A DNA stretch of 64,000 bases. Origin: Rhodococcus triatomae. GTDB taxonomy: Bacteria > Actinomycetota > Actinomycetes > Mycobacteriales > Mycobacteriaceae. A program made the position numbers and the translations under genes. The DNA lies in NCBI RefSeq assembly GCF_014217785.1, contig NZ_CP048814.1:1-64000 (forward strand), read 5' to 3'. Position 1 is the first letter of the stretch; the number at the start of each line of letters is the position of its first letter. The notes beneath the pieces are model-generated. The model was not told where the DNA came from and did no database searches. It saw nothing but the letters and a program-made list of their open reading frames with translations. Shown piece after piece: positions 7,644-36,468 of the stretch.

Positions 7644-10273
<2,630 letters not shown>

Positions 10274-10367: not shown

Positions 10368-16357
<5,990 letters not shown>

Positions 16358-23178: not shown

Positions 23179-24168
23179 GTGTTCACACGCTCCGACTCCC
23201 CTCCGCGATCCATGCACGTGTTCCTGCTCGCACTCGGGGTCGGCGTTCTTCTCGTGCCGGTGTCGGAGCCCGTATTACGCGCATACCCGGCCGTGGCGAC
23301 GTTCGCCACCCTCTTCGCCGCGGTGTTCGTCCAGGCGTTGCCGTTCCTCGTCCTCGGTGTCCTTCTCAGCGCGGCAATCGCCGCCTTCGTCCCCGCGGGC
23401 CTGTTCGAGCGGATCCTGCCCCGGAACGAGCATGCTGCCGTGGGCATTGCGGGATTCGGTGGGGCGGCCCTTCCCGGCTGCGAGTGCGGAGCGGTGCCGG
23501 TGGCTCGGAGGCTGGTCGATCAGGGCGTCCCCCGAGCTGCCGCGCTCACGTTCCTCCTCGCGGCACCGGCCGTCAATCCAGTGGTACTGGTGGCAACGGC
23601 GGTCGCCTTCCCCGACGACCCGAAAGTCGTTCTCGCCCGGGCACTCGGTTCGATGGCCACGGCGCTGACGATGGGATGGTTGTGGATTCGGATCGGGCGA
23701 CCCGAGTGGATCACCGCCCGTCCTCCGTCCGTGCACTCCTGCGCCGGGGGCGGTGGCCGTACGGCCACCTTCGTCGAGAGTGCCCGCAGCGACTTCCTCC
23801 AGTCCAGCTCCTTCCTCGTGGTGGGCGCGGCGGCCGCAGCCGTGCTGCACATCGTCGTTCCTGCGGGGATCTACGACGAGCTCGCGAATCGGATCCTGCT
23901 CGCGATCCTCGTGATGGCGATCCTCGCGGTGGTGCTGTCGTTGTGTTCGGAGGCCGATGCTTTCGTGGTCGCGAGCCTTCCCATGCTCCCCCTCCTCCCT
24001 CGCCTGGTGTTCCTGGTGGTCGGCCCGGCAGTCGACGTCAAGCTCTTCGTCATGCAGGTGGGTGCCTTCGGTCGGGCGTTCGCTCTCCGGTTCGCCCCGC
24101 TGACGTTCGTCGTCGCCGTGACGTGCGGGAGCATCGCCGGTCTCGTCGTGTTCGGGGGCGCGGGATGA
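23179..24168 (+). CDS. Permease of the ArsP/DUF318 type
   Basis: This 329-residue membrane protein has about eight hydrophobic segments. Two conserved blocks mark the family: GGAALPGCECGAVPVARRLVDQGVPRAAALTF (residues about 90-125) and LSLCSEADAFVVASLP near 255. Such permeases (YcgR of Bacillus is one) pair with a TIGR03943 protein, as here, with an ATGA overlap. Transported ion is unproven. The position at the edge of a zinc island and the His-rich partner suggest metal-related transport. The GTG at 23179 is used; an ATG at 23212 is possible. No Zur-like box is visible in 23030-23178. Confidence 0.82.
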   Translation: MFTRSDSPPRSMHVFLLALGVGVLLVPVSEPVLRAYPAVATFATLFAAVFVQALPFLVLGVLLSAAIAAFVPAGLFERILPRNEHAAVGIAGFGGAALPGCECGAVPVARRLVDQGVPRAAALTFLLAAPAVNPVVLVATAVAFPDDPKVVLARALGSMATALTMGWLWIRIGRPEWITARPPSVHSCAGGGGRTATFVESARSDFLQSSSFLVVGAAAAAVLHIVVPAGIYDELANRILLAILVMAILAVVLSLCSEADAFVVASLPMLPLLPRLVFLVVGPAVDVKLFVMQVGAFGRAFALRFAPLTFVVAVTCGSIAGLVVFGGAG

Positions 24169-24929
24169 CGCGGGCGACCTCCAACGTGGTCCTGCTCCTC
24201 GTCGGGATGATGACCGTGCAACTCGCGGGGAACGGCACCTACGCGCGGTACGTCGCGGTCGGATTCGGGCCGTACCTGATGGCCGCTGGTCTCGTCCTCG
24301 TCCTACTCGCGGTCGCAGCGATGATCCTGGACGTGCGCCGGCACGGCGCAGAGGCCGCCGCGGATTCCCCGCACCGGGCTCACGCGCATTCGGGCCACGA
24401 GCACTCCGGTGGCGTGCACTGGTTTCTGGTGGCCGCAGTCGTCGTCATCGTGTTCGTCTCCCCGCCTCCACTGAGCGTCTCGTCGGTGGGAAACATCCGT
24501 TCCGAGGCGATCGCCACCGTGGAGCGGGAACCGTTTCCTCCGCTCCCCGGCGGCGACGCGCCGGAAATCGGGATCGCCGACGCGGTCACGCGAGCCGCAC
24601 GGGACTCGACCGACAGTCTCGTCGGCAGGGAGATCACCCTCACCGGCTTCGTGGTGCGCACCTCGAACGGCGGCGCGCCGCGAGCCGACGGGTCCCTGAC
24701 CGGGCTCGATCTCGCGCGTATCCGCATCGTCTGCTGCGCCGCCGATGCGCGGACGGTACGGGTCCACCTGTCCCCGGAGGTGCCCGCGTACCCCGAGGGA
24801 ACCTGGGTCTCGGTCCGGGGTGTCGTCGACCCCGTTTCCTCGACACCGTCCACTCGCTACATTCCGACGCTGCACGTCCGGTCCGTCACCGAGATCGAGG
24901 CACCGGACCATCCGTATGCACCCCGATAG
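24165..24929 (+). CDS. TIGR03943 family putative permease subunit
   Basis: This 254-residue protein is of the YcgQ/TIGR03943 type. Two N-terminal membrane helices (VVLLLVGMMTVQLAG; YLMAAGLVLVLLAVAAMIL) are followed by a His-rich stretch (PHRAHAHSGHEHSGGVHW, residues about 69-86), a third helix (FLVAAVVVIVFV), and an extracytoplasmic OB-like domain with the conserved RIRIVCCAADARTVRV block near 187 and GTWVSVRGVV. The His cluster and the Cys pair look suited to metal binding. It always accompanies the DUF318 permease and is translationally coupled to it here. Confidence 0.83.
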   Translation: MTRATSNVVLLLVGMMTVQLAGNGTYARYVAVGFGPYLMAAGLVLVLLAVAAMILDVRRHGAEAAADSPHRAHAHSGHEHSGGVHWFLVAAVVVIVFVSPPPLSVSSVGNIRSEAIATVEREPFPPLPGGDAPEIGIADAVTRAARDSTDSLVGREITLTGFVVRTSNGGAPRADGSLTGLDLARIRIVCCAADARTVRVHLSPEVPAYPEGTWVSVRGVVDPVSSTPSTRYIPTLHVRSVTEIEAPDHPYAPR

Positions 24930-24930
24930 T

Positions 24931-24971
24931 TATCGGCAATGATTGTCAATATGCGCCTCGGCCGATAGGCT
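24931..24971 (+). promoter_or_regulatory. Zur-box-like operator and -10 of the ChlI/ChlD-like pair
   Basis: A 21-bp imperfect palindrome centred at 24941 (24931-24951; core GGCAATGATTGTCAAT) matches the Zur box type of actinobacteria. A TAGGCT -10 (24966-24971) stands 7 nt before the ATG at 24979, predicting a leaderless mRNA. The box covers the expected -35 region, so Zur-Zn would repress. Confidence 0.75.
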
Positions 24972-24978
24972 CCCCGAG

Positions 24979-25917
24979 ATGTCGGAGACCTTCCCCTTCA
25001 CCGCCGTCATCGGCCAGGAATCGTTCAAACGAGCACTACTCCTCAACACGATCGATCCCGGGATCGGCGGTGTCCTGGCCATGGGCGATCGCGGCACCGC
25101 CAAGTCCACTCTCGTGCGGTCGCTGGCAGATCTCATCGCCGGCTCCGGAAGCCACTCACCCGTCGTCGACCTCCCCCTGGGCGCGACCGAGGATCGGGTG
25201 GTGGGCTCCCTGGACGTCGATGCCGCCCTCGCCCGAGGCGAGTTCCGCTTCCGCCCAGGGCTACTCGCCGACGCGCACGAGGGATTTCTCTACATCGACG
25301 AGGTCAACCTCCTCGACGACCATCTCGTCGACCTCCTGCTCGACGTCGCCGCAGGCGGAGTCAATCGGGTCGAACGCGAAGGTGTCAGCCACAGCCATCC
25401 GGCGCGCTTCGTGCTGGTCGGTTCCGGCAACCCGGAGGAGGGTGAGCTACGGCCACAGCTCGAAGACCGCTTCGGCCTCTCGACGTTCGTCTCCACTCTC
25501 CGCGACGTCGCCACTCGCACCGCGATCGTGCGGGCGCGCCTCGCGTTCGACGCCGATCCGGTGGCGTTCAGGTCGCGGTACGCCGCACGGCAATCCGAGC
25601 TCGGCGGCCTCGTCGCTGCAGCCAGGTCGGCGCTCCCCGACGTCCGGGTGCCGGATCGGATCGTCGAGAAGGCCGTCGAGTTCTGTGTCGCCGCCGAGGC
25701 CGTCGGACACCGCGCCGAGATCGTCCTCGTCCGCGCGGCTCGTGCGTCCGCGGCCCTCCACGGGCGGACCGAGGTTCTCCACACCGATCTGGCCGAGGTC
25801 ATGCTTCCTGCGCTGCGCCACCGCATTCCACGAGATCCCTTCGAGCCTGCGGCTCGGGTGAATGCCCGCCTGACGAACACGATTCGCGCCGTGACGGGCG
25901 GCCCCGTCGCCGCATGA
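24979..25917 (+). CDS. ChlI/BchI-type AAA+ ATPase
   Basis: This 312-residue AAA+ motor resembles the I subunit of magnesium chelatase. It has Walker A AMGDRGTAKSTLVRSL near residue 35, Walker B GFLYIDEVNLLDDHLVDLLLD near 100, the insert VNRVEREGVSHSHPARF, and sensor/Arg region GSGNPEEGELRPQLEDRFGL near 145. In true chelatases this subunit works with a D (VWA) and an H/CobN subunit that holds the porphyrin and metal. Only the D-like partner is present here. The Zur-type box upstream implies a job under zinc limitation, perhaps metal insertion or removal in an unknown target. It is coupled to the next gene by ATGA. Confidence 0.88.
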   Translation: MSETFPFTAVIGQESFKRALLLNTIDPGIGGVLAMGDRGTAKSTLVRSLADLIAGSGSHSPVVDLPLGATEDRVVGSLDVDAALARGEFRFRPGLLADAHEGFLYIDEVNLLDDHLVDLLLDVAAGGVNRVEREGVSHSHPARFVLVGSGNPEEGELRPQLEDRFGLSTFVSTLRDVATRTAIVRARLAFDADPVAFRSRYAARQSELGGLVAAARSALPDVRVPDRIVEKAVEFCVAAEAVGHRAEIVLVRAARASAALHGRTEVLHTDLAEVMLPALRHRIPRDPFEPAARVNARLTNTIRAVTGGPVAA

Positions 25918-27404
25918 GCTGCCACCCGCTCCCCTGGGAGCCGACGGTCGAACAATTGCTCACATCGCACCAGTGGGCGCTGTGCCGAGCCTGGGCTCGC
26001 GGCGGACGCTTCGGACTCGCCCTCGTCGGCGATTCCTGGGGCCGCGAACGCCTGCTGCGAGAACTCTCCCGTCGCGCCGACGCGGTGCACGTCGGTCCCG
26101 GAACCTCCGTGACGACACTGACGACGGGTGACGACCGGCTCGGACGGCGCAGCGCGCCTCTGAACGACCGCGCCGATCGCACCGCACTCGCCGTCGCGGC
26201 GGTCGACACGCTGGACCCCCAGGTAGCGGCCGCGATCACCACCGTCCGGATCCTCGCCTCGGCGCCCGACTGGGAGTCCATCCCCGTCGCCCTCCGGGAT
26301 TCGCTGACCGTGGTCGTCGGCGTCCGGCGCCGGCCGGTGGGCCGCCCACGTCGCATCCCGCCCGGTGGAGACGACGTCGTGACGGCGATCGTCCGCCTGC
26401 TCGACGCGAATTCCCTGTGCAGCCATCGCCTCGATCTGGGCGCCGTCGCGTGTGTGCGCGCCGTGGGCCTCGACGGGGCGGCAGCACTCGACCTGGTGGC
26501 ACGGTTCGTCGTCGCTCCGCGTCTCCCCGCAGTCGCGGAATCGCCCGCACCGCAAGAGAACACCACTGCTCCTCCACACACGTCGGGCACCGCCGGCGGC
26601 GACGGCACGGACGAGCTGACTCCGGACCAGGCCGAGTGCGAGTCCGGTCCGCCGAGGGCACCGCTCACGGCCGGACCCGGGCCACCGCCCGCTCCACCCG
26701 CGCGCCGAACGGTGCGGCGAATACTGCCCGGTCGCCGTGGCGCCGTCGCCCGCGACCTCCGCGGACGCCCGCGCGGCGTGTCCACCTATCATCCGGAATC
26801 CGGAGTCGCGGTCGTCCCCACGCTCGTCGGCGCAGCACGCGAGGGCCGCCGTATCCCCACTGCCGCCGATCTCCGCAGCTGGCGCCGAGTTCGCCGGGGT
26901 GGGCGGATTCTGGTTGTGATACTCGACCGTTCGGACTCGATGGGCGGTCTCCGCGCACGGGATGCGGCGGCATTCGCAGAACGCGCCCTACGCTCGGCCG
27001 TCGCCGATCGGTGTGAGCTCGCCGTGATCGCCGCCCGGGGCGCCCGCGCGGAGCTGTCCCTGGCACCGACCCGGAGTCTGCACCGCGCCCACCGCACGAT
27101 CCGCGACCTCTCGTGTGGCGGCGGCACCCCGTTGGCTTCGGCATTCGAACTCGCCACCGACCTCGTTCGGCTGATCGGCCGCGACGTCGACGTCCGCTGC
27201 TGCATCCTCACCGACGGGGCGGCGACGGTCCGGCTGACCGGCGACGACCGGGGTTCGGCCGTCGAGCAGGCGGAGCGGGAACTGACGACCCTGGCCCAGC
27301 TGTGCACCCGAGTCGAGGTCATCCCGTGCGCTCACCCCGGGATGCGGGTGCGCAGGGATCAGCTGGAGTGGCTCGCTCGTGCCGGGGCCGTGGTCGCCGA
27401 ATGA
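25914..27404 (+). CDS. ChlD/BchD-type VWA-domain protein
   Basis: This 496-residue partner of the AAA+ protein has three parts. An N-terminal AAA-like part has a degenerate P-loop (VGDSWGRERLLREL, no GKT). A Pro/acidic linker follows (about 205-265). A C-terminal VWA domain has an intact MIDAS: DRSDS near residue 339, the Thr in CGGGTPLASA, and the Asp in CCILTDGA. This is the layout of magnesium-chelatase D subunits. The degenerate ATPase half implies a regulatory/adaptor role, with the I-like neighbour providing hydrolysis. No CobN/ChlH-type third subunit is in the window. The real substrate is unknown. Confidence 0.85.
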   Translation: MSCHPLPWEPTVEQLLTSHQWALCRAWARGGRFGLALVGDSWGRERLLRELSRRADAVHVGPGTSVTTLTTGDDRLGRRSAPLNDRADRTALAVAAVDTLDPQVAAAITTVRILASAPDWESIPVALRDSLTVVVGVRRRPVGRPRRIPPGGDDVVTAIVRLLDANSLCSHRLDLGAVACVRAVGLDGAAALDLVARFVVAPRLPAVAESPAPQENTTAPPHTSGTAGGDGTDELTPDQAECESGPPRAPLTAGPGPPPAPPARRTVRRILPGRRGAVARDLRGRPRGVSTYHPESGVAVVPTLVGAAREGRRIPTAADLRSWRRVRRGGRILVVILDRSDSMGGLRARDAAAFAERALRSAVADRCELAVIAARGARAELSLAPTRSLHRAHRTIRDLSCGGGTPLASAFELATDLVRLIGRDVDVRCCILTDGAATVRLTGDDRGSAVEQAERELTTLAQLCTRVEVIPCAHPGMRVRRDQLEWLARAGAVVAE

Positions 27405-27408
27405 CGCG

Positions 27409-27441
27409 TCGGGCCGCAACGCGCAGCGCGTTGCGGCCCGA
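27409..27441. terminator. Bidirectional terminator hairpin
   Basis: A perfect 15-bp inverted repeat (TCGGGCCGCAACGCG and complement) with a CAG loop lies between the converging ChlD-like and aztD1 genes. Confidence 0.7.
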
Positions 27442-27462
27442 TGTCGTTCTGCAGGCAGGGAA

Positions 27463-28686
27463 TCAGCCGGTCACACCGGTGATCTCGTTGGGCGTCTCGG
27501 GCAACTCGACGGAGGCCGTCACCGTCCCACCCTCGATGTCGACGGCGTGCACGGAGTTGGTGGCCGGGTCGGTCACGTACGCCGTGTGATCCTCGACGAA
27601 CAGCGCCGGTCGCGGCTCCTGCCACTTCTCCGGCTCGGTCCACGGATCGATCACGTCGATGGAGTTCGTCACCTGCTTGGTATCGACGTCGATGACGTGG
27701 AGACGACCGTCGGTGCCGAGGACGAGCGCCTCACCGTGCGGTCCCCGACCCAACGAACGGAAGGTGTAACTCGTACCGAGGTCCACCAGATCGAGTCGGC
27801 CCGTCCGGGTGTCGACGAGTGCCACCCGCTCCGGGCGCTCCAGATCCGCATCTGGATCGGACTTGTAGTCGCCGAGGAGAACCGGAGATTCCTCGTCGCC
27901 TGCCTGATTGCCGATGCGGCCGTACGGGTCCGGGCTCGCGATCTTGGTGATGGTGCCGTCCCGATAGACGAGGACGCCGGTCTGGCAGCCGACGACGACT
28001 GCCTCGTCCGCGGCCACCGCCTCGCCGTGCACTCCGGGGCAGTCCTCGTTGCGGGCGATCTCGTTACGGTCGCGATCGAGGACGACGATCCCCGTACGCT
28101 CCTCCTCGTCACCGATCGTGGTGAGCAGGCTGCCGTCCGAGAGTTCTACCGCGACACCGTGGTGTGGCTCCGGGGTCGTGTACTCCGTCACGTCCGGCTC
28201 ACCCTCGGACAGGTCCGAGGAGTCGAAGATCCGGACCAGCCCGGTGCCGTCGTCGAAGAGGACCGTCTTGCCTGCGTGACGGACCACGTGGCCGGGGGTC
28301 TCCGCGGAGAAGGTGATGTCGGTCAGTGCCGGCTCCGCGGTGTAGTGCGAGGTGCCGTCCGTCCACGTACCGGTGTCGAGCGCCGTGAATCCACTGCCCG
28401 TGCTGACGAAGACATGGCGCCCGTCGCCTGCCGGATTGAGCCGGACGAAGCCTTCCGACTCCGCGGATCCGACGACCTCGAGGCTTTCGGCATCGAGCAC
28501 GAGAATTCCACCGTCGTGGGACACCGCGAGCCGAGGGGTGGCGGCCGCAACCGAAGTGGGCTCGGCCGTGGCCGCGCCGTCCTGGCCGGCCTCCGCGTCC
28601 GAGGAGGAACAGGAAGCGATCAGTACGGCGGAGAGCCCGAGGGCCGCCATACCGACCGGAAGTCGATATCGATGTGTTGAAGTCAC
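27463..28686 (-). CDS. aztD: AztD-type periplasmic zinc chaperone (paralogue 1)
   Basis: This 407-residue exported lipoprotein-like beta-propeller has a hydrophobic signal ending in AVLIASC (lipobox, near residue 26). Blade-like repeats with a D.D....V..ID pattern fill the rest. Conserved His sites include TPEPHHGVAVEL near residue 180 and CPGVHGEAVAADEAVVVGC near 225. In Paracoccus, AztD hands zinc to the binding protein AztC. The gene stands alone after a 62-bp gap from aztC, with its own Zur-like box. The GTG at 28686 follows a GATACT -10 by 8 nt, so it may be leaderless. Confidence 0.82.
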   Translation of the reverse strand: MTSTHRYRLPVGMAALGLSAVLIASCSSSDAEAGQDGAATAEPTSVAAATPRLAVSHDGGILVLDAESLEVVGSAESEGFVRLNPAGDGRHVFVSTGSGFTALDTGTWTDGTSHYTAEPALTDITFSAETPGHVVRHAGKTVLFDDGTGLVRIFDSSDLSEGEPDVTEYTTPEPHHGVAVELSDGSLLTTIGDEEERTGIVVLDRDRNEIARNEDCPGVHGEAVAADEAVVVGCQTGVLVYRDGTITKIASPDPYGRIGNQAGDEESPVLLGDYKSDPDADLERPERVALVDTRTGRLDLVDLGTSYTFRSLGRGPHGEALVLGTDGRLHVIDVDTKQVTNSIDVIDPWTEPEKWQEPRPALFVEDHTAYVTDPATNSVHAVDIEGGTVTASVELPETPNEITGVTG

Positions 28687-28694
28687 AGGAAAGA

Positions 28695-28723
28695 AGTATC
28701 CTTACTGCAAACGATTGTCAAAG
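28695..28723 (-). promoter_or_regulatory. Zur-box-like operator and -10 of aztD1
   Basis: A palindrome centred at 28713 (28703-28723; plus-strand core GCAAACGATTGTCAAAG) shares CGATTGTCA-type half sites with the other zinc-island boxes. GATACT on the minus strand (28700-28695) is a plausible -10, 8 nt before the GTG. Confidence 0.65.
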
Positions 28724-28748: not shown

Positions 28749-29675
28749 TCACCGCGAAAGACCTTCCTGGATCGCCAGGGAATTGGAGTCCATCATCTCG
28801 ATGTACGTGCTCGCGCCCGAGCCCTCACTGCCCAGCGACTCGGTGAACAGCGCTCTCACCTCGACCGGAGTGTCGGCCTCCGAGGCAAGGACCTGAGCCA
28901 ACCGATCGGGCTGGGACGAGTCGACGAAGATCGCCGGGACACCGGCCGCGGAGATCGTGGCCGTCAGTTCGGACAGATCCGAGGCGCTCGGTGACGCCAA
29001 CGTGGTTCCGCTGGGTACGACAGCGCCGATCACCTCGAAGCCGAAACGTTCCGCCAGATAGCCGAAGACGTGGTGATTGGTCACCAGCTTCCGCCGATCC
29101 GGAGGTAGCGACTCGAACCGCGACTGCATGCGGGAGGTCAAGGCCTCGAGTTCGGCGAGATATTCCTGCGCCCTGGCCGAGACCGCTGTCGCGTCGACTC
29201 CGGGCACGCTGTCGACGACGGCGCGCTCGATGGCCGACACGGCCGTCGCCATCCGTTCCGGATCCGTCCAGAAATGCGGATCGGGCATACCCGACGACTG
29301 CCCTGCCACATAGTCCAGCGGGTTCACCGCGGGACCGACCTCGAGGACCGGAATTCCTTCCGACCGTGCCGTGTCGACCGTCTTCGTGATCCCTTCCTCG
29401 AGCCCGAGACCGTTGGAGACGACAAGATCGGATCGCTCCACCCGCGCCGCCTCGGCCGCGGAGATCTCGAACGAATGCGGGTCGGCGTCACGCGGCATGA
29501 GCACCATGACCTCGACCTCGTCGCCGACGACGTTCTCCACGACGTCACCGAGGATATTGGTGGTGACCACCACGAGTGGACCGTTCGATCCGGCCGCCGA
29601 CTCGCACCCGGAGAGCGCGGACCCGAGTACGGCAGCCACCAGGACGGCGGCGGCACCGACGAGACGGCGACGCAT
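28749..29675 (-). CDS. aztC: Zinc ABC transporter substrate-binding lipoprotein AztC
   Basis: This 308-residue cluster A-I metal-binding lipoprotein has the signal VLVAAVLGSALSGC with lipobox LSGC near residue 24. Expected metal ligands are His in PRDADPHSFE (about 66), His in GMPDPHFWTD (about 133), His in VTNHHVFGYLAERFGF (about 199) and Asp in IFVDSSQPDR (about 250). It lacks the long His-rich loop of ZnuA, which is characteristic of AztC and fits its dependence on AztD for zinc loading. The ATG overlaps the aztD2 stop by one base. Confidence 0.88.
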   Translation of the reverse strand: MRRRLVGAAAVLVAAVLGSALSGCESAAGSNGPLVVVTTNILGDVVENVVGDEVEVMVLMPRDADPHSFEISAAEAARVERSDLVVSNGLGLEEGITKTVDTARSEGIPVLEVGPAVNPLDYVAGQSSGMPDPHFWTDPERMATAVSAIERAVVDSVPGVDATAVSARAQEYLAELEALTSRMQSRFESLPPDRRKLVTNHHVFGYLAERFGFEVIGAVVPSGTTLASPSASDLSELTATISAAGVPAIFVDSSQPDRLAQVLASEADTPVEVRALFTESLGSEGSGASTYIEMMDSNSLAIQEGLSR

Positions 29676-30970
29676 CAGAAGCCTGCCAGCGTCATGGAAG
29701 CGGGAGCCACGCCGACGTCGAGAGTCCGCGCCACGCGAGCGCCGTCGCGATAGTCGATCTCCAGCACTACCTCGGCGGCGGGATCCGCGACGTACGCCCG
29801 GTTGCCGCCGACGACGACCACCGGCGCGGTCGCGCTCCGGTCACTCGGATCGAACGGCTCCGCGAGGACGGACGACGAACCCGTCTCCTCGCCCGTAGCC
29901 GCGTCGTAGACCCGGAACGTACGGTCGGCAAGCACCGCGAGGGCGTTGCGACCGTCCCCGGAGAGATTCACGCTCAGCACCGGCTCGGGGGTCGCGATCT
30001 GTGACCACTGCCGGGTGGCGGTGTCGAACAAGAGGATTCCCGCATTGCTCGCCGCCGGCCCGGCCGGGGCGACGACGACCGGCAGCTTGTCCTGGGTCCG
30101 GAACGAGGAGGGGCGCGTCTCGGCGGTGATCCCCGGCGGATACCCAACCTTCTCCGAGATCCACTGCCCGTCCGCGACGCTCGCCACGAACACGCCGTCA
30201 TCGCACGCCGCGATCGCGTAGGTGCGGAACGCTGCCTGCCCGTGCATCCGCGGGCAGAAGTCCGTGAACTCCTGGACGAACTCCCCTCCACCGTCGCGTA
30301 GTTCGAACGAGCTCGGCCGCGAGTCGTCCGCCTCTCCCGAGGGACGCGAGGTCACGAAGTGATCGGACACCGGGATCACCACTCCGTGATGTGGGCCGCC
30401 GGTCTCGACGGTGCCGGTCACCGTGACATCCCCGTTCCGAAGACCGGAGTTGTCCAGCACGTCGGCCTCGCCCTCACCGTCGAAGAACACGGCCACCTTG
30501 CCGTCCCCGGCAACGATGTGAGCCGGATCGTCGCCGCTCAGCACTCCCAGTTCGGCGGGCGATCTGACATAGGAATGCGTGTGGTCTCCGTGATCGATCG
30601 TCCAGGAACCGACGTCGATCACGTGGACCCGGCCGTCCTCGCCGGACGAGGCCGCTGCGGTGGCGAATGCGTACCTGCCACCGACGTCGGTGAGCCGCGA
30701 CGGCTCCTGTACGTCGAAGGTCGCGATGTTCTCACCCGACTCCAGATCGAGCACGTCCACTCGTCCCGAATCGGCATCCGACACGACCAACCGGGGTTGT
30801 GGACCGTCGACCTCGGTCGATCCCTCGTCTGCCTGGAGGTCGCTCCCGGGCCTCGCACCGGTCGCCGCGGGTTCGCCCGTCGCGCCGTCCTCGTCACTCC
30901 CACAGCCTGTGGCGACGAGGCCCAGCGCGAGCGCCACGGCCGAGATACGACGGATACTCGTCGACTTCAT
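29675..30970 (-). CDS. AztD-type periplasmic zinc chaperone (paralogue 2)
   Basis: This second AztD-like lipoprotein, 431 residues, has signal and lipobox LGLVATGC near residue 23, an acidic linker, then a beta-propeller. Its metal-binding candidates differ from paralogue 1: WTIDHGDHTHSYV near residue 130 adds three His, while ETGGPHHGVVIP and CPRMHGQAAFRTYAIAAC are shared in position. It is the upstream, translationally coupled partner of aztC and is thus the likelier classical AztD. A GGAG ribosome site precedes the ATG, and a Zur-like box separates it from aztB. Confidence 0.82.
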   Translation of the reverse strand: MKSTSIRRISAVALALGLVATGCGSDEDGATGEPAATGARPGSDLQADEGSTEVDGPQPRLVVSDADSGRVDVLDLESGENIATFDVQEPSRLTDVGGRYAFATAAASSGEDGRVHVIDVGSWTIDHGDHTHSYVRSPAELGVLSGDDPAHIVAGDGKVAVFFDGEGEADVLDNSGLRNGDVTVTGTVETGGPHHGVVIPVSDHFVTSRPSGEADDSRPSSFELRDGGGEFVQEFTDFCPRMHGQAAFRTYAIAACDDGVFVASVADGQWISEKVGYPPGITAETRPSSFRTQDKLPVVVAPAGPAASNAGILLFDTATRQWSQIATPEPVLSVNLSGDGRNALAVLADRTFRVYDAATGEETGSSSVLAEPFDPSDRSATAPVVVVGGNRAYVADPAAEVVLEIDYRDGARVARTLDVGVAPASMTLAGF

Positions 30971-30987
30971 TCACACTCCACTCATAA

Positions 30988-31008
30988 TCATGACAATCAT
31001 TTTCGACT
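30988..31008 (-). promoter_or_regulatory. Zur-box-like operator of aztD2-aztC
   Basis: A 21-bp palindrome centred at 30998 (plus-strand core ATGACAATCATTTTCG) lies between the aztB stop and the aztD2 start, overlapping the last two bases of aztB. It is the closest of the five to the classical mycobacterial Zur half-site TGAxAATCATT. It implies a separate Zur-controlled promoter for aztD2-aztC. Confidence 0.75.
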
Positions 31009-31873
31009 ACTGTAGCGAAGTCCGAACCGACTCCCCCTCGGTGGCGGCCCGCCCGCGTAGTCCGGAGGCCGCGGAACCGAGCGCGGCGACGACGAAGAAC
31101 TGCAGAACCGCGAGGCCCGCGATCGTCGCCCCCGCCGCGGTGTTCGCGTGCCAGGACACCACCAGCCCGAAGAAGGTCGCGCTCCAGCCGAGCAGAACCG
31201 CGATCGCCATCGTGGACACGATCGATCGACGACACAGTGCCGCCGTCGCCGACGGCGCGACCAGCAGACCGAAGACCAACAGGGTCCCCACGATTCGGAA
31301 CGAGGCGACGACCGCGAGCACGACGAGCGCCAGGAGGAGCACGTGGGCCAGCCGTGGTCGCATTCCGAGCGTGAACGCCTTGCGCTCGTCGAACACCAGC
31401 GCGACGAAGGGCCGGTAGGCCACGACGGAGATCGCCCCTGCCACGGCCACCGCGCACCCGAGCCAGATCAGGTCACCCCGGGTGGCGGACAGGACGTCAC
31501 CGAACAGGAATGCCGTCAGATCGACGGCGAAGGACCGCGCCCGGGACACGATGACGACGCCGAGGGCGAGCATTCCAACGAACAGCAGTCCGATTCCGGT
31601 GTCCTCGGACAGCCGGGAGCGTGTGGTCACCCATGCGACACCGAGAATCATCACCACGGCGCTCGCGGCGGCGCCCAGAAGCAGATTCGCACCGGCGAGG
31701 TAGGCGATCGCCACCCCGGGAAGCATGCCGTGCGACACGGCCTCGCTCATGAACGCCATACCGCGTATCACCACCCACGTGCCCACCAGGGCACACAGGA
31801 CCGATACCAGCAATCCCGCAGCCAGCGCCCGTTGGACGAAGGTCGCGGTGAAAGGATCGAGTAGCCACTGCAC
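31007..31873 (-). CDS. aztB: Zinc ABC transporter permease AztB
   Basis: This 288-residue permease of the ABC-3 (ZnuB/MntB) family has about eight to nine hydrophobic segments. Family motifs include GMAFMSEAVSHGMLPGVAIAYL near residue 38 and SFRIVGTLLVFGLLVAPSATAALC near 200. The GTG start (VQWLLDPF) is 6 nt from a TAGGTT -10 that overlaps the -10 of the divergent aztA, and a Zur-like box lies just beyond. It supplies the membrane channel for AztA and AztC. Confidence 0.9.
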   Translation of the reverse strand: MQWLLDPFTATFVQRALAAGLLVSVLCALVGTWVVIRGMAFMSEAVSHGMLPGVAIAYLAGANLLLGAAASAVVMILGVAWVTTRSRLSEDTGIGLLFVGMLALGVVIVSRARSFAVDLTAFLFGDVLSATRGDLIWLGCAVAVAGAISVVAYRPFVALVFDERKAFTLGMRPRLAHVLLLALVVLAVVASFRIVGTLLVFGLLVAPSATAALCRRSIVSTMAIAVLLGWSATFFGLVVSWHANTAAGATIAGLAVLQFFVVAALGSAASGLRGRAATEGESVRTSLQ

Positions 31874-31878
31874 CCTGC

Positions 31879-31905
31879 TAACCTAGGCGATAATGATTGT
31901 CGTAA
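31879..31905. promoter_or_regulatory. Divergent aztA/aztB promoter with Zur-box-like operator
   Basis: A palindrome centred at 31895 (31885-31905; core CGATAATGATTGTCG) covers the first 13 bases of aztA. The heptamer TAACCTA at 31879-31885 reads as TAACCT (-10, plus) and TAGGTT (-10, minus), placed 8 nt before the aztA ATG and 6 nt before the aztB GTG. Both transcripts would be leaderless and share one operator. Confidence 0.72.
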
Positions 31906-32567
31906 GCGATGTGGTGGTGCGATACGGGACCAGGGCTGCCCTGAGCGGAGTCACCGCCACGTTCGAACCGGGCGCGATCACAGCCCTGGTCGGCCACAAC
32001 GGGTCCGGCAAGTCCACTCTGCTCCAGGCGCTGGCGGGCACCGTGACACCGTCCACCGGCCGGATCACCGGCACCGATCGGGCAGACATCGCCTACGTCC
32101 CTCAACGCAGTAGCGTGCGAGACGAGCTACCCCTGTCGGTACGCGAGGTCGTCGCCATGGGTGCGTGGCGGCGACGAGGCCTGTGGCGCAGGCTGAGCCC
32201 CGAGGATCGCCGCGCCGTCGACGCGGCCCTCGACCGCCTCGGCGTGGCGCACCTGTCGACACGGCGGATCGGCGACCTCTCCGGCGGACAACGCCAACGG
32301 GCACTGCTCGCCCAGGCAGTGGTCCAGCGCGGGCAGATCGTCCTCCTCGACGAACCCGCCACCGGGCTCGACGCCGAAGCCCGCGCCGTGATCGTGGACG
32401 TCATGCGCGACGAAGCCCGTCGTGGCGCGATCGTGGTCGTCGCCACCCACGACCGGCGCGACTGCCGCGACGCCGACCAGGTCCTGCGGCTCGAGGACGG
32501 CATCCTCTCCACCGAGACCACCGCGTTCGGCGACACCGTCTGCAGCGACACCGTGCACAGCGGCTGA
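31893..32567 (+). CDS. aztA: Zinc ABC transporter ATPase AztA
   Basis: This 224-residue import ATPase has Walker A GHNGSGKSTLLQAL near residue 36, signature LSGGQRQRALLAQAV near 130, Walker B IVLLDEPATGLD, and switch His VVVATHDRRDC near 192. The AYVPQRSSVRDELPLSVREVVAMG block is typical of zinc/manganese ABC importers. The ATG lies inside the Zur-like operator, so an mRNA starting here would have no leader. The short length (ZnuC proteins often carry extra C-terminal His-rich tails) matches AztA. Confidence 0.9.
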   Translation: MIVVSDVVVRYGTRAALSGVTATFEPGAITALVGHNGSGKSTLLQALAGTVTPSTGRITGTDRADIAYVPQRSSVRDELPLSVREVVAMGAWRRRGLWRRLSPEDRRAVDAALDRLGVAHLSTRRIGDLSGGQRQRALLAQAVVQRGQIVLLDEPATGLDAEARAVIVDVMRDEARRGAIVVVATHDRRDCRDADQVLRLEDGILSTETTAFGDTVCSDTVHSG

Positions 32568-32670: not shown

Positions 32671-34848
32671 TCAGAGGCGGTAGCGGATCAATCGGGAGCT
32701 GTTGGCGACGACGGCGACGGACGAGGCGTTGTGCAGCACGGCGGCGAGCACCGGCGACAGCGCACCTCCGGCACCGACCAGAAGGCCGATCGCGTTGACC
32801 GCGATCGACATCCCGTAGTTCTGCCGGATCACCGCGACCGCGTGCCGGCCGAGGTCGCGGGTATCGAGAATGCGCTCGAGGTGGTCGCCGGCGAGTGCGA
32901 CGTCTGCCGTCTCCACCGCGACATCCGTCCCGGCCAGTCCCATCGCGATGCCGATGTCCGCCGCGGCCAGCGCCGGGGCGTCGTTCGTTCCGTCGCCGAC
33001 CATCGCCACCACATAGCCACGATCCTGCAGGGACCGCACGGCCTCCAGTTTGTCGTCGGGCAGCACCTCCGCGCGCCACTCGTCGATCCCGAGTTCGGCC
33101 GCGACAGCCGCCGCCGTCTCCGGATGGTCGCCGGTGAGCATGACGATGCGCCGGACCCCGTCGGCCCGTAGGCGTTCGAGGACGTCGCGGGCACCGGGCC
33201 GCACCTCGTCCCGGAGGCTGATCAACCCCACCAGCGTGCCGTCCACGGCGAGGAGCAGCGGTGTCTCCGCCTCGCGCCGCAACCTGGTCACCCAGTCGCG
33301 GGCATCGTCGGACAGCGTGATCCCCTCGCCGACGAGCAGCGAAGGACTGCCGAGCAGCAGTGTGCGTCCCGCAGCGATCGTCCGCATCCCGAGACCGACG
33401 AGCACCTCGCATTCCTCGTGCGGCGGGATCGCGATGTGCCGTTCCTCGGTGCTCCGAATCACCGCCTCCGCCAGCGGATGCCGGGAATGCACTTCCGAAC
33501 TGGCCGCGTAGGCCAGAACGTGCTCCGGCTCCCACGCGAGGTCGAAGGCCACCACATTGGTGACGACCGGCCGGCCGACCGTGAGCGTGCCCGTCTTGTC
33601 GAACACCACGGCGTCGACGCGACCGGCCTCCTCGAGGTGCGAACCGCCCTTGATGAGAATTCCCCGCCGGGCGCCGTTGCCGATCGCCGCGCTGATCGCG
33701 GTGGGCGTGGCCAACCCGACCGCGCACGGGCAGGCGACGAGAAGCATGGTCATCGCACGGCGGACGTCGCGGGTGACGAGCAGCGTCAACGCCGACAACG
33801 CGAAGGACGCAGGCACGAATCGCCGGGAGAACGCCGCGCCGACGGTTTCGATGGGGGCACGATCCTCCTGCGCCTCCTCCACCCGCGCGATGATCCGGCC
33901 GATGGTGGTCTCGGTCCCGACCGCGGTCGCCCGCACGACCAGCCGTCCCCGGATCACCACCGAACCGGCGTGGATGCGCGCGCCCTCCTCGAACGTCACC
34001 GGGAGCGTCTCGCCCGTGATCGCGGACTGGTCCACCACTGCCTGCCCCTCGACCACGACGCCGTCGACGGGAATCGCCACGTGATCGTGCACGACGACCT
34101 CGTCTCCGGCACGGAGCGAGTCGATGTCCACGGAGACCTCGCTGCCGTCGCCGAGACGAATCCACGCCGTGTCCTGGGTCCCGGTCAGCAGATCCGCAAT
34201 CGCGCGACGGGTCCGCCGCAGCGTCAGATCCTGGAGGTACTCGCCGATGTTGAGCAGCCACAGCACGGTGAGGGCGACCACGTTCTCCCGCAGCACGAGG
34301 CTGGCGATCGTGGCAGCCGACACCAGCGCGTCGGTGCCGGCGGAACGCCGCCCGGCGAGGGCACGGAGCGCGCCGCGCAGGAACGGATATCCGGTGAACA
34401 CGGTGACAGCGGTGGCCCCGAGACGGCCACCCGGCCCCAACACGGACGGGCGCCGAAATGCGTAGCGACGCAGGCCCAGTACCGCAAGAGCAGCCCCACC
34501 GACAGCCATGCGCAACAGATCACCGTTGGTGACGTCCGCAGAGTACGGAACCCTCGCCGGGGTCTTCGACGGATCGACGGCCAGGCCGGTCTCGATCGCG
34601 GCGAGGATCTCCGGCCGGGATGCCTTGCTGCGGGAGTACCAGACGACGACCGATCCGGTCCGCGGGTACGCGTGGGCGGCGCGCACCCCGGTGACACCGA
34701 GCAGCGCGTCCTCGATCCCTACTGCTCGGCTGCGACTGGACCGCAGCGACGGGACAGCGAAGCGGACCCGACCCGCCGCGTCCGAGACGACGTCGGGCGC
34801 CCGGAAAACTGCTGCCTTTTCGACCGGCCGGTCAGTGCTGGTGGTCAT
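32671..34848 (-). CDS. ctpC: CtpC-like P1B-type metal-transporting ATPase
   Basis: This 725-residue efflux ATPase is of the mycobacterial CtpC (Rv3270) type. The metal-path motif is LLVACPCAVGLATPTA near residue 375; the phosphorylation site is VFDKTGTLTVG near 420; TGE is in SAITGETLPV near 275; MVGDGTNDAPALAAADIG near 630 is the hinge. The N-terminus has no CXXC metal domain, only a ferredoxin-like part with RSKASRPEI. CtpC needs a PacL partner and has been tied to zinc and manganese export; zinc fits this island best. The start overlaps the PacL-like gene by 17 bp. Confidence 0.9.
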   Translation of the reverse strand: MTTSTDRPVEKAAVFRAPDVVSDAAGRVRFAVPSLRSSRSRAVGIEDALLGVTGVRAAHAYPRTGSVVVWYSRSKASRPEILAAIETGLAVDPSKTPARVPYSADVTNGDLLRMAVGGAALAVLGLRRYAFRRPSVLGPGGRLGATAVTVFTGYPFLRGALRALAGRRSAGTDALVSAATIASLVLRENVVALTVLWLLNIGEYLQDLTLRRTRRAIADLLTGTQDTAWIRLGDGSEVSVDIDSLRAGDEVVVHDHVAIPVDGVVVEGQAVVDQSAITGETLPVTFEEGARIHAGSVVIRGRLVVRATAVGTETTIGRIIARVEEAQEDRAPIETVGAAFSRRFVPASFALSALTLLVTRDVRRAMTMLLVACPCAVGLATPTAISAAIGNGARRGILIKGGSHLEEAGRVDAVVFDKTGTLTVGRPVVTNVVAFDLAWEPEHVLAYAASSEVHSRHPLAEAVIRSTEERHIAIPPHEECEVLVGLGMRTIAAGRTLLLGSPSLLVGEGITLSDDARDWVTRLRREAETPLLLAVDGTLVGLISLRDEVRPGARDVLERLRADGVRRIVMLTGDHPETAAAVAAELGIDEWRAEVLPDDKLEAVRSLQDRGYVVAMVGDGTNDAPALAAADIGIAMGLAGTDVAVETADVALAGDHLERILDTRDLGRHAVAVIRQNYGMSIAVNAIGLLVGAGGALSPVLAAVLHNASSVAVVANSSRLIRYRL

Positions 34849-35358: not shown

Positions 35359-35383
35359 GGGACCTCCTCGATCGACATTTATT

Positions 35384-35408
35384 GGTTACGATTATCGTTA
35401 TCGTAACC
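35384..35408. promoter_or_regulatory. Zur-box-like operator between L36 paralogue and CobW-like gene
   Basis: A 25-bp palindrome with perfect 9-bp arms (GGTTACGAT / ATCGTAACC) is centred at 35396 between two divergent genes. TAACCT at 35404-35409 is a candidate -10 for the rightward gene. Its core is less like the AATGATTGTC type than the other four, but the context (zinc-free ribosomal protein) strongly supports Zur. Confidence 0.72.
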
Positions 35409-35445: not shown

Positions 35446-36468
35446 GTGCACCTCGAACCGGCCCTCGACGTCCATCTCGTGTTCGGCGCGCACCCGCGAC
35501 CACGCCGACAGCTGATCGCCACGCTCGCGCAGCGTGAGCCGGATCAGGTCCTCCCGTGCCACGACGACATGGGTGACGACGAGATCACCGAGCGTGCAAC
35601 GGACTTCGTCGCGCACCGGATCGGGAGGACCACGGCGGGAGACACCGTCGTGATCGAGTGCCCCGACCATTCGCACCCGGTCCATCTGGGCGCCGGCATC
35701 GCCGAAGGAATCCGATGCGCCCTCGACCTCGACGCCTCGATCACCTCCCACACCGTGCTCACGGAGACAACCTTCCACCTCGACCTGCACGGCGAGGACT
35801 CGACGATCGTGCGCTCGGTGATCGCGCAGATCGAGCATGCAGCGCACATTCACCTGGTCGGCACGGCGCCTGGTGAGCCCGCGAGAAGTGCGGCGAGCGC
35901 ACCCCCGGAACTGACTCTCGCCCTCCTGGAATGCCTGGCTCCGGCCGCGTACCTCACTCACCGCCACAGCACCCGCATCGGCCGTCGAGCACGCCGTTCC
36001 CGTCATCTCGCCTCGGGACCCGGCTGGGCGACGATCCTGGATGGCGAGTTCGACGTGCCCGAGATCGTCTCCACGGGCCGGCCGGACGTCTCGTGCTTCC
36101 GCTACGAACAGCTCCGGCCGTTCCATCCCGGACGACTGCAACAAGTGCTCGACGACGTCTTCGACAGCCGGGCCTACGGGTGGGTGGTGCGGTCCGCCGG
36201 CTTCTGTCGGCTCGCGACGAGGCCGGAGAGCACCGCCCACTGGGATCAGGCGGGCCGGTCCCTCTCGTTCGAGCACCTTGCCCGCGACGCGGAGCACGAC
36301 GAACTACTCGCGATCGGGCAGGACCTCGCCTTCATCGGCGTAGACCTCGACCGCCGTCGACTGTCGGCCGCGCTCGACTCCTGCACGCTCGACGACTCGG
36401 AACTGATCGCCGGCCCGAGCCGCTGGCAACAGTACGCAGATCCGTTTCCCGAATGGCTGTGCCCCTGA
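35446..36468 (+). CDS. CobW-C-domain protein of COG0523 type without P-loop
   Basis: This 340-residue protein has a clear C-terminal CobW_C domain: RPFHPGRLQQVLDDVF near residue 225, YGWVVRSAGFCRLATRP near 245, then HWDQAGRSLSFE. In the N-terminal half the GTPase P-loop (normally GxxGxGKT) is replaced by VFGAHPRPRRQLIATLA near residue 12-28, and the CxCC metal motif is missing. The region instead has His/Cys-rich ECPDHSHPVHLG. It may be a non-hydrolysing relative of Zur-regulated COG0523 chaperones. Its pairing with a zinc-free ribosomal protein recalls the mycobacterial C-minus operon, which also encodes the ribosome hibernation recruiter Mrf; relatedness is untested. The GTG has an AGGA ribosome site. 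Confidence 0.75.
   Translation: MHLEPALDVHLVFGAHPRPRRQLIATLAQREPDQVLPCHDDMGDDEITERATDFVAHRIGRTTAGDTVVIECPDHSHPVHLGAGIAEGIRCALDLDASITSHTVLTETTFHLDLHGEDSTIVRSVIAQIEHAAHIHLVGTAPGEPARSAASAPPELTLALLECLAPAAYLTHRHSTRIGRRARRSRHLASGPGWATILDGEFDVPEIVSTGRPDVSCFRYEQLRPFHPGRLQQVLDDVFDSRAYGWVVRSAGFCRLATRPESTAHWDQAGRSLSFEHLARDAEHDELLAIGQDLAFIGVDLDRRRLSAALDSCTLDDSELIAGPSRWQQYADPFPEWLCP

Follow-up and report, generated by a model that had tools for sequence, protein, structure and literature searches.

A 64,000-nucleotide stretch of the Rhodococcus triatomae genome (hereafter the window; C1:1-64000 of the 4.77-Mb genome) carries, directly downstream of a Zur-like box, two overlapping genes for magnesium-chelatase-type subunits: a BchI/ChlI-type AAA+ ATPase (I) and a BchD-type protein with a VWA domain (D). 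The I protein falls in one clade with the I proteins of two distant actinobacterial operons in which a Zur-like box precedes genes for an importer, a BchH-type large subunit (H), I and D. We propose that the window pair may be the motor half of a Zur-controlled porphyrin-chelatase lineage that has become uncoupled from H and serves a different, non-dedicated client, a reading of the sequences that we hold to be about evenly balanced. The presence of the box before the pair at two unrelated loci, together with the same I clade in the Zur-boxed importer-BchH operons, ties the pair to zinc starvation, and the membership of the clade in those operons points to a testable substrate class.

The original prediction for this stretch described an intact I/D pair, and the motifs of both proteins bear this out. 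I keeps Walker A (GDRGTAKS), Walker B (FLYIDE) and sensor 1 (GSGNPEE), its solved structural relatives are ChlI and BchI, and it matches the AAA_lid_2 and Mg_chelatase domains above cut-off. All NCBIfam matches of I and D fall under their cut-offs; I scores 389.5 bits against TIGR02442 and 381.4 bits against TIGR02030 (cut-off 466.95), and the latter indicates that I is not the BchI equivalog. D has no Walker A but contains a complete metal ion-dependent adhesion site (MIDAS; D338-R-S340-D-S342, T405 and D434), and it matches VWA_2, TIGR02442 and BchD models, the matches to TIGR02031 and NF009943 being sub-cut-off. A profile of seven D sequences aligned with three BchD sequences over residues 23-453 of the window D (hhalign 99.85%); the first 205 residues alone gave 14.9% against BchD, so that the N-terminal assignment depends on the full-length alignment. 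At an E-value threshold of 0.01 the only PDB sequence match of the D profile is 2x31, the magnesium-chelatase 60 kDa subunit. The predicted structure of D was poor (four-row alignment, mean predicted local distance difference test score 50.6), and its Foldseek matches, headed by VWA domains with AAA+ weak, were given no extra weight for this reason.

A search with D over 394 genomes of the class found 37 with a match at 1e-20, and among the matches listed only those in the window genome and two further genomes (G247 and G448) spanned the N-terminal part at 189 bits or more, all others scoring at most 97.2 bits. In 200 genomes of the G448 family four matches were found at 1e-35, three of which (124-129 bits, long frames, second half only) were read as fused ChlID proteins. 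No further cases appeared in 22 genomes of the G247 order, 397 of the window's order or 396 of the phylum; the searches of the class, the window's order and the phylum considered three candidates per genome among the matches listed, and absences from them are weak. G247 and G448 are distant actinobacteria with the same gene order: a FecCD/BtuC-type permease, an ABC ATPase, a binding protein, H, I and D. The binding protein of the G247 operon is IsdE/BtuF-like, and it consists of two tandem domains around 50% identical to each other (L076, 2199-4040). The two H proteins score 1052.9 and 1004 bits against BchH (G247 and G448, cut-off 829), with 582.8 and 628.8 bits against the CobN model (cut-off 822.05). 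Sequence identity is 59% between these two H proteins, 36-38% with Novosphingobium BchH, and 33-34% with the CobN proteins of the window genome and Hoyosella. Each of the two genomes also holds a second H-type gene with a CobN-like PF02514 score, which in G247 sits after a cobalamin riboswitch. BchH was above cut-off in one of 296 class genomes, namely G247, with G448 absent among the matches listed. No gene of the bch pathway was seen in the two 19-kb stretches around the H operons, and in a plasmid collection the best relatives of H are annotated as magnesium-chelatase H or sit among bch genes; the window D found no match in that collection.

The relationship of the pair to these operons was examined with a tree of 29 I sequences, from which the broken I of H. 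altamirensis was excluded. The window I, three Hoyosella I proteins and the two H-operon I proteins form one group (support 100/100), separate from a group of 16 actinobacterial rows, mostly ChlID (100/99), and from the phototroph BchI proteins (100/98). Identity inside the group is 64.5-67.3% (66-67% between the window I and the three Hoyosella proteins) and does not exceed 55.4% with the remaining 23 I proteins of the set. The inclusion of the H-operon proteins in this group suggests a common origin of the pair and a Zur-boxed porphyrin-chelatase/importer system.

The predicted zinc control was assessed with several scans. A hand-written Zur consensus found four sites of at least 10/14 in the 64 kb, at 24934, 28706, 30991 and 31888, marking the I gene, aztD, an aztD paralogue and the gap between aztB and aztA, with 0.9 expected from plain shuffles. 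With a matrix built from nine distinct Zur-type sites, none at a chl gene, the box before I scored 17.2 bits, ranking third in the window; the other three of the top four sites all lie at azt genes, and the maxima over 12 Markov shuffles of the window were 8.3-15.1 bits, a range that includes the azt site at 31888 (13.9 bits). The box predicted originally thus persists on closer scanning, and it recurs at a different locus in all four Hoyosella-type genomes that carry the pair, where it is the top matrix match of each locus (22.9, 22.9, 22.9 and 19.0 bits); the top matches of the two H-operon loci lie before the first importer gene (21.6 and 20.6 bits). The matrix was trained partly on sites from the same genomes, and these scores therefore measure consistency and are not proof. 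In one Hoyosella locus of 18 kb (L041), a lone unexplained site at position 2223 reaches 16.4 bits, which shows that single sites near the score of the window box can arise by chance.

We also searched seven genomes for the pattern TGRNAAYNRTTNYCA without mismatch, taking the reversed pattern as a control. Exact sites numbered two in G000, five each in G024, G050, G067 and G080, four in G247 and one in G448; the boxes before the pair match exactly in three of the four Hoyosella-type loci, and those of the window and of G080 are one base off. Twenty 3-kb stretches around exact sites were examined. In G000, G050, G247 and G448 one exact site lies at most 41 bases from the start of a zinc binding-protein-type gene matching AztC, AdcA and ZnuA models, all sub-cut-off, and in G247 this site is also 17 bases 5' of a Fur-family gene; some further exact sites precede short or doubtful open reading frames (ORFs). 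The pair thus has the 15-bp upstream box of a type found before zinc binding-protein genes, as expected of a Zur regulon. This box type agrees with the published Zur boxes tGaNNatSatNNtCa and taaTGaNAANNNTTNtCANta (PMC5472717), and likewise with the mycobacterial Zur box (PMC7174638).

Within the family, D matches of some kind occur in 112 of 151 genomes, and by score only five hold orthologues: the window genome, G050, which we take to be Hoyosella subflava, and the Hoyosella records G067, G024 and G080, the last assigned to another genus group than the other three. The best piece of each orthologue reaches at least 144.7 bits, with at most 58 in all other family genomes, and one of 28 genus genomes carries the pair, most or all candidates being scored. 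These four Hoyosella-type genomes are the nearest relatives found; they hold the pair without a dedicated H and among different neighbours. I and D follow a glycosyltransferase-like gene in three of the loci and lie near one in G080, with ABC-exporter-like (polysaccharide-exporter) genes beyond it. No azt relative was seen near these pairs, the ORF picks used missing some genes, D included, and co-occurrence of the pair with aztABCD was not supported in the relatives. Each Hoyosella-type genome has one H-type gene, which in G050 is a CobN by score (1102.6 bits, cut-off 822.05), and each also has a long ChlID-like frame.

The absence of a ChlH/CobN-type subunit near the pair was confirmed, and a PF02514 search of the window genome found no dedicated third subunit anywhere; the claim that the system has no third subunit stands for this genome and fails for the family, given the BchH-type H and FecCD-type importer of the G247 and G448 operons. 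The one H-type gene found in the window genome is a CobN gene in two pieces, the long piece 82% identical to a Hoyosella CobN. A run of C (C1:4624237-4624260; L001, near 4360) divides it into two reading frames, through either a sequencing error or a real break. Its score against TIGR02025 (BchH) is 700.5 bits, under the cut-off of 829, and neither PF02514 nor TIGR02025 revealed a BchH-type H above cut-off in the genome. The suggestion of a distant CobN with a Zur box is contradicted here, as a cobalamin riboswitch precedes this gene and its 19-kb stretch has no Zur-like site above 8.1 bits. A separate fused ChlID lies at C1:4067135, followed by cobO- and cobB-like genes (named from their translations); an annotated Tsukamurella record has mqo, GNAT, VWA and cobyrinate a,c-diamide synthase genes in a like order. 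The CobN under its riboswitch and the separate fused ChlID mark the I/D pair as an extra set. At the four Hoyosella CobN loci we detected no cobalamin riboswitch at gathering score and no Zur-like site above 13.5 bits, with none close upstream of CobN.

Taken together, these observations suggest how the pair might work. As zinc falls, Zur would leave its box and I and D would be produced; the I ring would hydrolyse ATP and strain a client bound in trans by the VWA/MIDAS of D, which could serve to remove or insert a bound metal. For the complete operons this client would be the BchH-type H, loaded with a tetrapyrrole from outside that is most plausibly a zinc tetrapyrrole losing its metal. With no BchH-type H found in the window genome, the motor there should serve either CobN or something else. 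The MIDAS reads DRSDSMG in all five D proteins without an H partner and DASGSM in both D proteins that have one, and this change, with no BchH-type H found, makes another, non-dedicated client of zinc-starved cells most likely in the window genome and Hoyosella. A client other than CobN is somewhat favoured by the changed MIDAS, the existence of a dedicated cobalamin motor, the CobN riboswitch and the break in the CobN frame.

Magnesium chelatase normally inserts metal into chlorophyll-like rings. For the full operon, the release of zinc from an imported tetrapyrrole would be the most attractive role, considering its zinc-type control, the tetrapyrrole/siderophore type of its importer, its porphyrin-type H and the precedent of HmuS; the operons hint at a function in scavenging zinc and not in making a pigment or vitamin. 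We tentatively extend this to a possible but somewhat doubtful scheme of non-phototroph zinc acquisition, in which a zinc tetrapyrrole such as zinc coproporphyrin would enter through BtuCD/FecCD-type import and be handled by a BchHID-type complex working in reverse, all under Zur, while the window genome and Hoyosella would have kept I and D alone, re-aimed at another client of zinc starvation. Such a substrate is conceivable, since an engineered actinobacterium makes zinc coproporphyrin III (PMC6160403). Among the papers listed, at the level of titles and the starts of abstracts, none describes a Zur-controlled chelatase, and in PMC2770081 both mentions of 'chelatase' concern cobalt chelatase. 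ChlI and ChlD without a large subunit are an acknowledged open question (PMC9227772); the proposed reading, if true, would offer a handle on the function of such pairs. Should the full operon indeed strip tetrapyrroles of zinc, it would represent a non-photosynthetic relative of magnesium chelatase with a catabolic role in zinc scavenging.

Several observations weigh against a motor uncoupled from H and re-aimed at another client. The MIDAS change tracks the tree, so mere divergence is possible, and the window I joins the Hoyosella proteins weakly (87/28), which leaves the direction, loss or gain of H, undecided. Partial plasmid matches outside the tree reach 58.6% identity over 78% of I, making the identity gap smaller than the tree set shows. 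In H. altamirensis the frame of the Zur-boxed I gene is broken around residue 263 (L040/L043), through either decay or sequencing error. As to the box, the reversed pattern matched in three genomes (once in G067, twice in G080 and once in G247, with zero in G000, G024, G050 and G448), and six of the 20 exact sites fall well within predicted ORFs (L135, L136, L138, L141, L144 and L148).

These points bear on other explanations to different degrees. The frame change in H. altamirensis and the patchy spread through genus and family would suit decaying leftovers of a once-whole Zur-controlled importer-H-I-D operon; we judge this unlikely, since the other four H-less loci keep both genes in intact frames with their motifs, an I identity of 66-67% between the window and three Hoyosella, and a Zur-like box at unrelated loci. 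A remodelling pair of the MoxR/VWA kind, never dependent on H and later recruited by the H-bearing operons, would accord with the undecided direction of the tree and with H-less ChlI and ChlD pairs of unknown function in other phyla (PMC9227772). It would also accord with a separate VWA and AAA pair of the I/D kind on a Haloterrigena turkmenica plasmid (L159), which is followed by three mycofactocin-coupled oxidoreductases and has no annotated H-type gene within the approximately 7 kb examined. Both I and D are nevertheless closest in kind to magnesium-chelatase subunits, and I scores 20 bits against bpMoxR, below the cut-off of 27; this origin seems rather improbable, if slightly less so than decay.

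The pair might instead act in trans with the cobalamin CobN, as a spare cobaltochelatase motor in zinc starvation or as a drive that runs CobN in reverse. In each of the five genomes with an H-less pair the single H-type gene found is of CobN type (typed in two), a role of ChlI and ChlD as partners of CobN has been proposed for actinobacteria (PMC9227772), and the lack of a riboswitch match at gathering score at the four Hoyosella CobN loci counts the same way. Set against this are the dedicated fused ChlID beside the cobO- and cobB-like genes and its long ChlID-like counterparts in each Hoyosella-type genome, the riboswitch of the window CobN, the lack of an upstream Zur-like site above chance at the window and Hoyosella CobN genes, the broken CobN frame, and the separation of the I clade from the cobalamin ChlID proteins; we regard partnership with CobN as improbable, on a par with decay. 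The domain models that match do bear the names of cobalamin and bacteriochlorophyll chelatases, and the pair could in principle be ordinary subunits of one or the other. Synteny and the tree already contradict this: neither the pair nor its relatives were seen beside cob or bch genes in the stretches examined (the typed genes around the pair, L039-L042, L076 and L077), in line with the original prediction, and no H in the genome exceeds the BchH cut-off. We consider it highly improbable. A role of the pair in cobalamin synthesis was rejected on the tree and the dedicated fused ChlID.

The features of the locus are listed below. The I and D genes share 4 bp (an ATGA overlap). The end of the possible -10 element lies 7 bases before the I start codon, and a leaderless start of the I gene is possible from this spacing. 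The strong hairpin sits between D and the opposing aztD gene. The TIGR03943/DUF1980 gene ends 4 bp before the Zur-like box, and the consensus scan of the window found no Zur-like site of at least 10/14 upstream of the ArsP_1-type permease. The surroundings of the pair showed no H-type gene, and no bch or chl genes occur among its typed neighbours, no genome-wide search for the latter having been made.

Table. Features of the I/D locus and its surroundings in the window.
Feature	Position	Strand	Basis
I subunit, BchI/ChlI-type AAA+ ATPase, 312 aa	24979..25917, ATG to stop	+	profiles, solved relatives, tree
D subunit, BchD-type (N-terminal part without Walker A, linker, VWA with MIDAS), 496 aa	25914..27404	+	profiles
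Zur-like box CGGCAATGATTGTCA	24934..24948	.	upstream of I gene, consensus and matrix scans
Possible -10 element TAGGCT, leaderless or short-leader promoter	24966..24971	+	sequence reading
Terminator-like hairpin after D	27403..27448	+	-40.2 kcal/mol, z -7.4
ArsP_1-type permease, upstream of pair, same strand	23179..24168	+	domain match
TIGR03943/DUF1980 putative permease subunit	24165..24929	+	profile match
AztD zinc metallochaperone, Zur-like box at 28706	27463..28686	-	profile, site scan
AztC zinc-binding protein	28749..29675	-	profile
AztD paralogue, Zur-like box at 30991	29675..30970	-	profile, site scan
AztB permease	31007..31873	-	
AztA ATPase, divergent from AztB; Zur-like box at 31888 (weak)	31893..32567	+	

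The AztD paralogue, placed between aztC and aztB, is divergent, with 152.8 bits against the AztD cut-off of 400. A heavy-metal P1B-type ATPase gene adjoins the azt genes (32671-34848, -), and a weak Zur-like site, TGGTTACGATTATCG (35383-35397, 11.6 bits, inside the chance range), lies 48 bases 5' of a gene for a COG0523-type GTPase (ZigA/MRF-like, CobW_C; 35446-36468, +). Elsewhere in the same genome (L161, C1:3279000-3298000) an exact Zur-type box at 8312 has a divergent YcaO-like set on one side and, on the other, a FecCD importer cluster that includes a peptidase-like gene (names from translations); this is possibly a zinc-controlled azoline peptide metallophore system. The importer at C1:3287311 was considered as the missing importer of the pair and rejected: its identity is 64% with an importer that adjoins a catechol NRPS-like (nonribosomal peptide synthetase-like) cluster in Hoyosella rhizosphaerae and 44-47% with the H-operon importers, and with the adjoining YcaO-like gene this looks like another metallophore system. 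In H. rhizosphaerae (G080; L162) a Zur-type box at 14087 precedes a FecCD permease adjoining a catechol-type NRPS-like cluster, whose product may be a zincophore. In three Hoyosella-type genomes (L163 in G050, box 6882; L139; L142) an exact Zur-type box lies 54-55 bases 5' of a decarboxylase-like gene; the genes that come next in L163 are cysteine-synthase-like, aminotransferase-like and MFS-like, and the set may form a small metallophore cluster.

Among known systems, the pair resembles BchHID/ChlHID in its BchI-type AAA+ I and BchD-type D, and in the BchH-type H found in the same operon in two relatives; it differs in the Zur-like box, in the importer genes of the H-bearing form, in having no bch or chl genes seen nearby, and in the lack of an H found in the window genome. 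The actinobacterial cobaltochelatase (CobN with a fused ChlID, TIGR02442) draws on the same I/D superfamily, whereas the pair consists of separate genes, belongs to another tree group (100/100 versus 100/99), has a Zur-like box, and coexists with a cobalamin set elsewhere in the genome. The AztABCD importer shares the box type and adjoins the pair in the window, but comprises different proteins and was not seen beside the pair in Hoyosella. HmuS of Bacteroidota offers an analogy to the H-bearing operons, being a CobN/ChlH-family protein linked to the removal of metal from an imported tetrapyrrole (PMC12583661); unlike them, it is predicted to be membrane-anchored, uses NADH rather than ATP, and releases iron from heme rather than zinc (PMC12583661). 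For BtuS, a relative of HmuS, a BtuS1/2 double mutant keeps de-chelation (PMC6460266).

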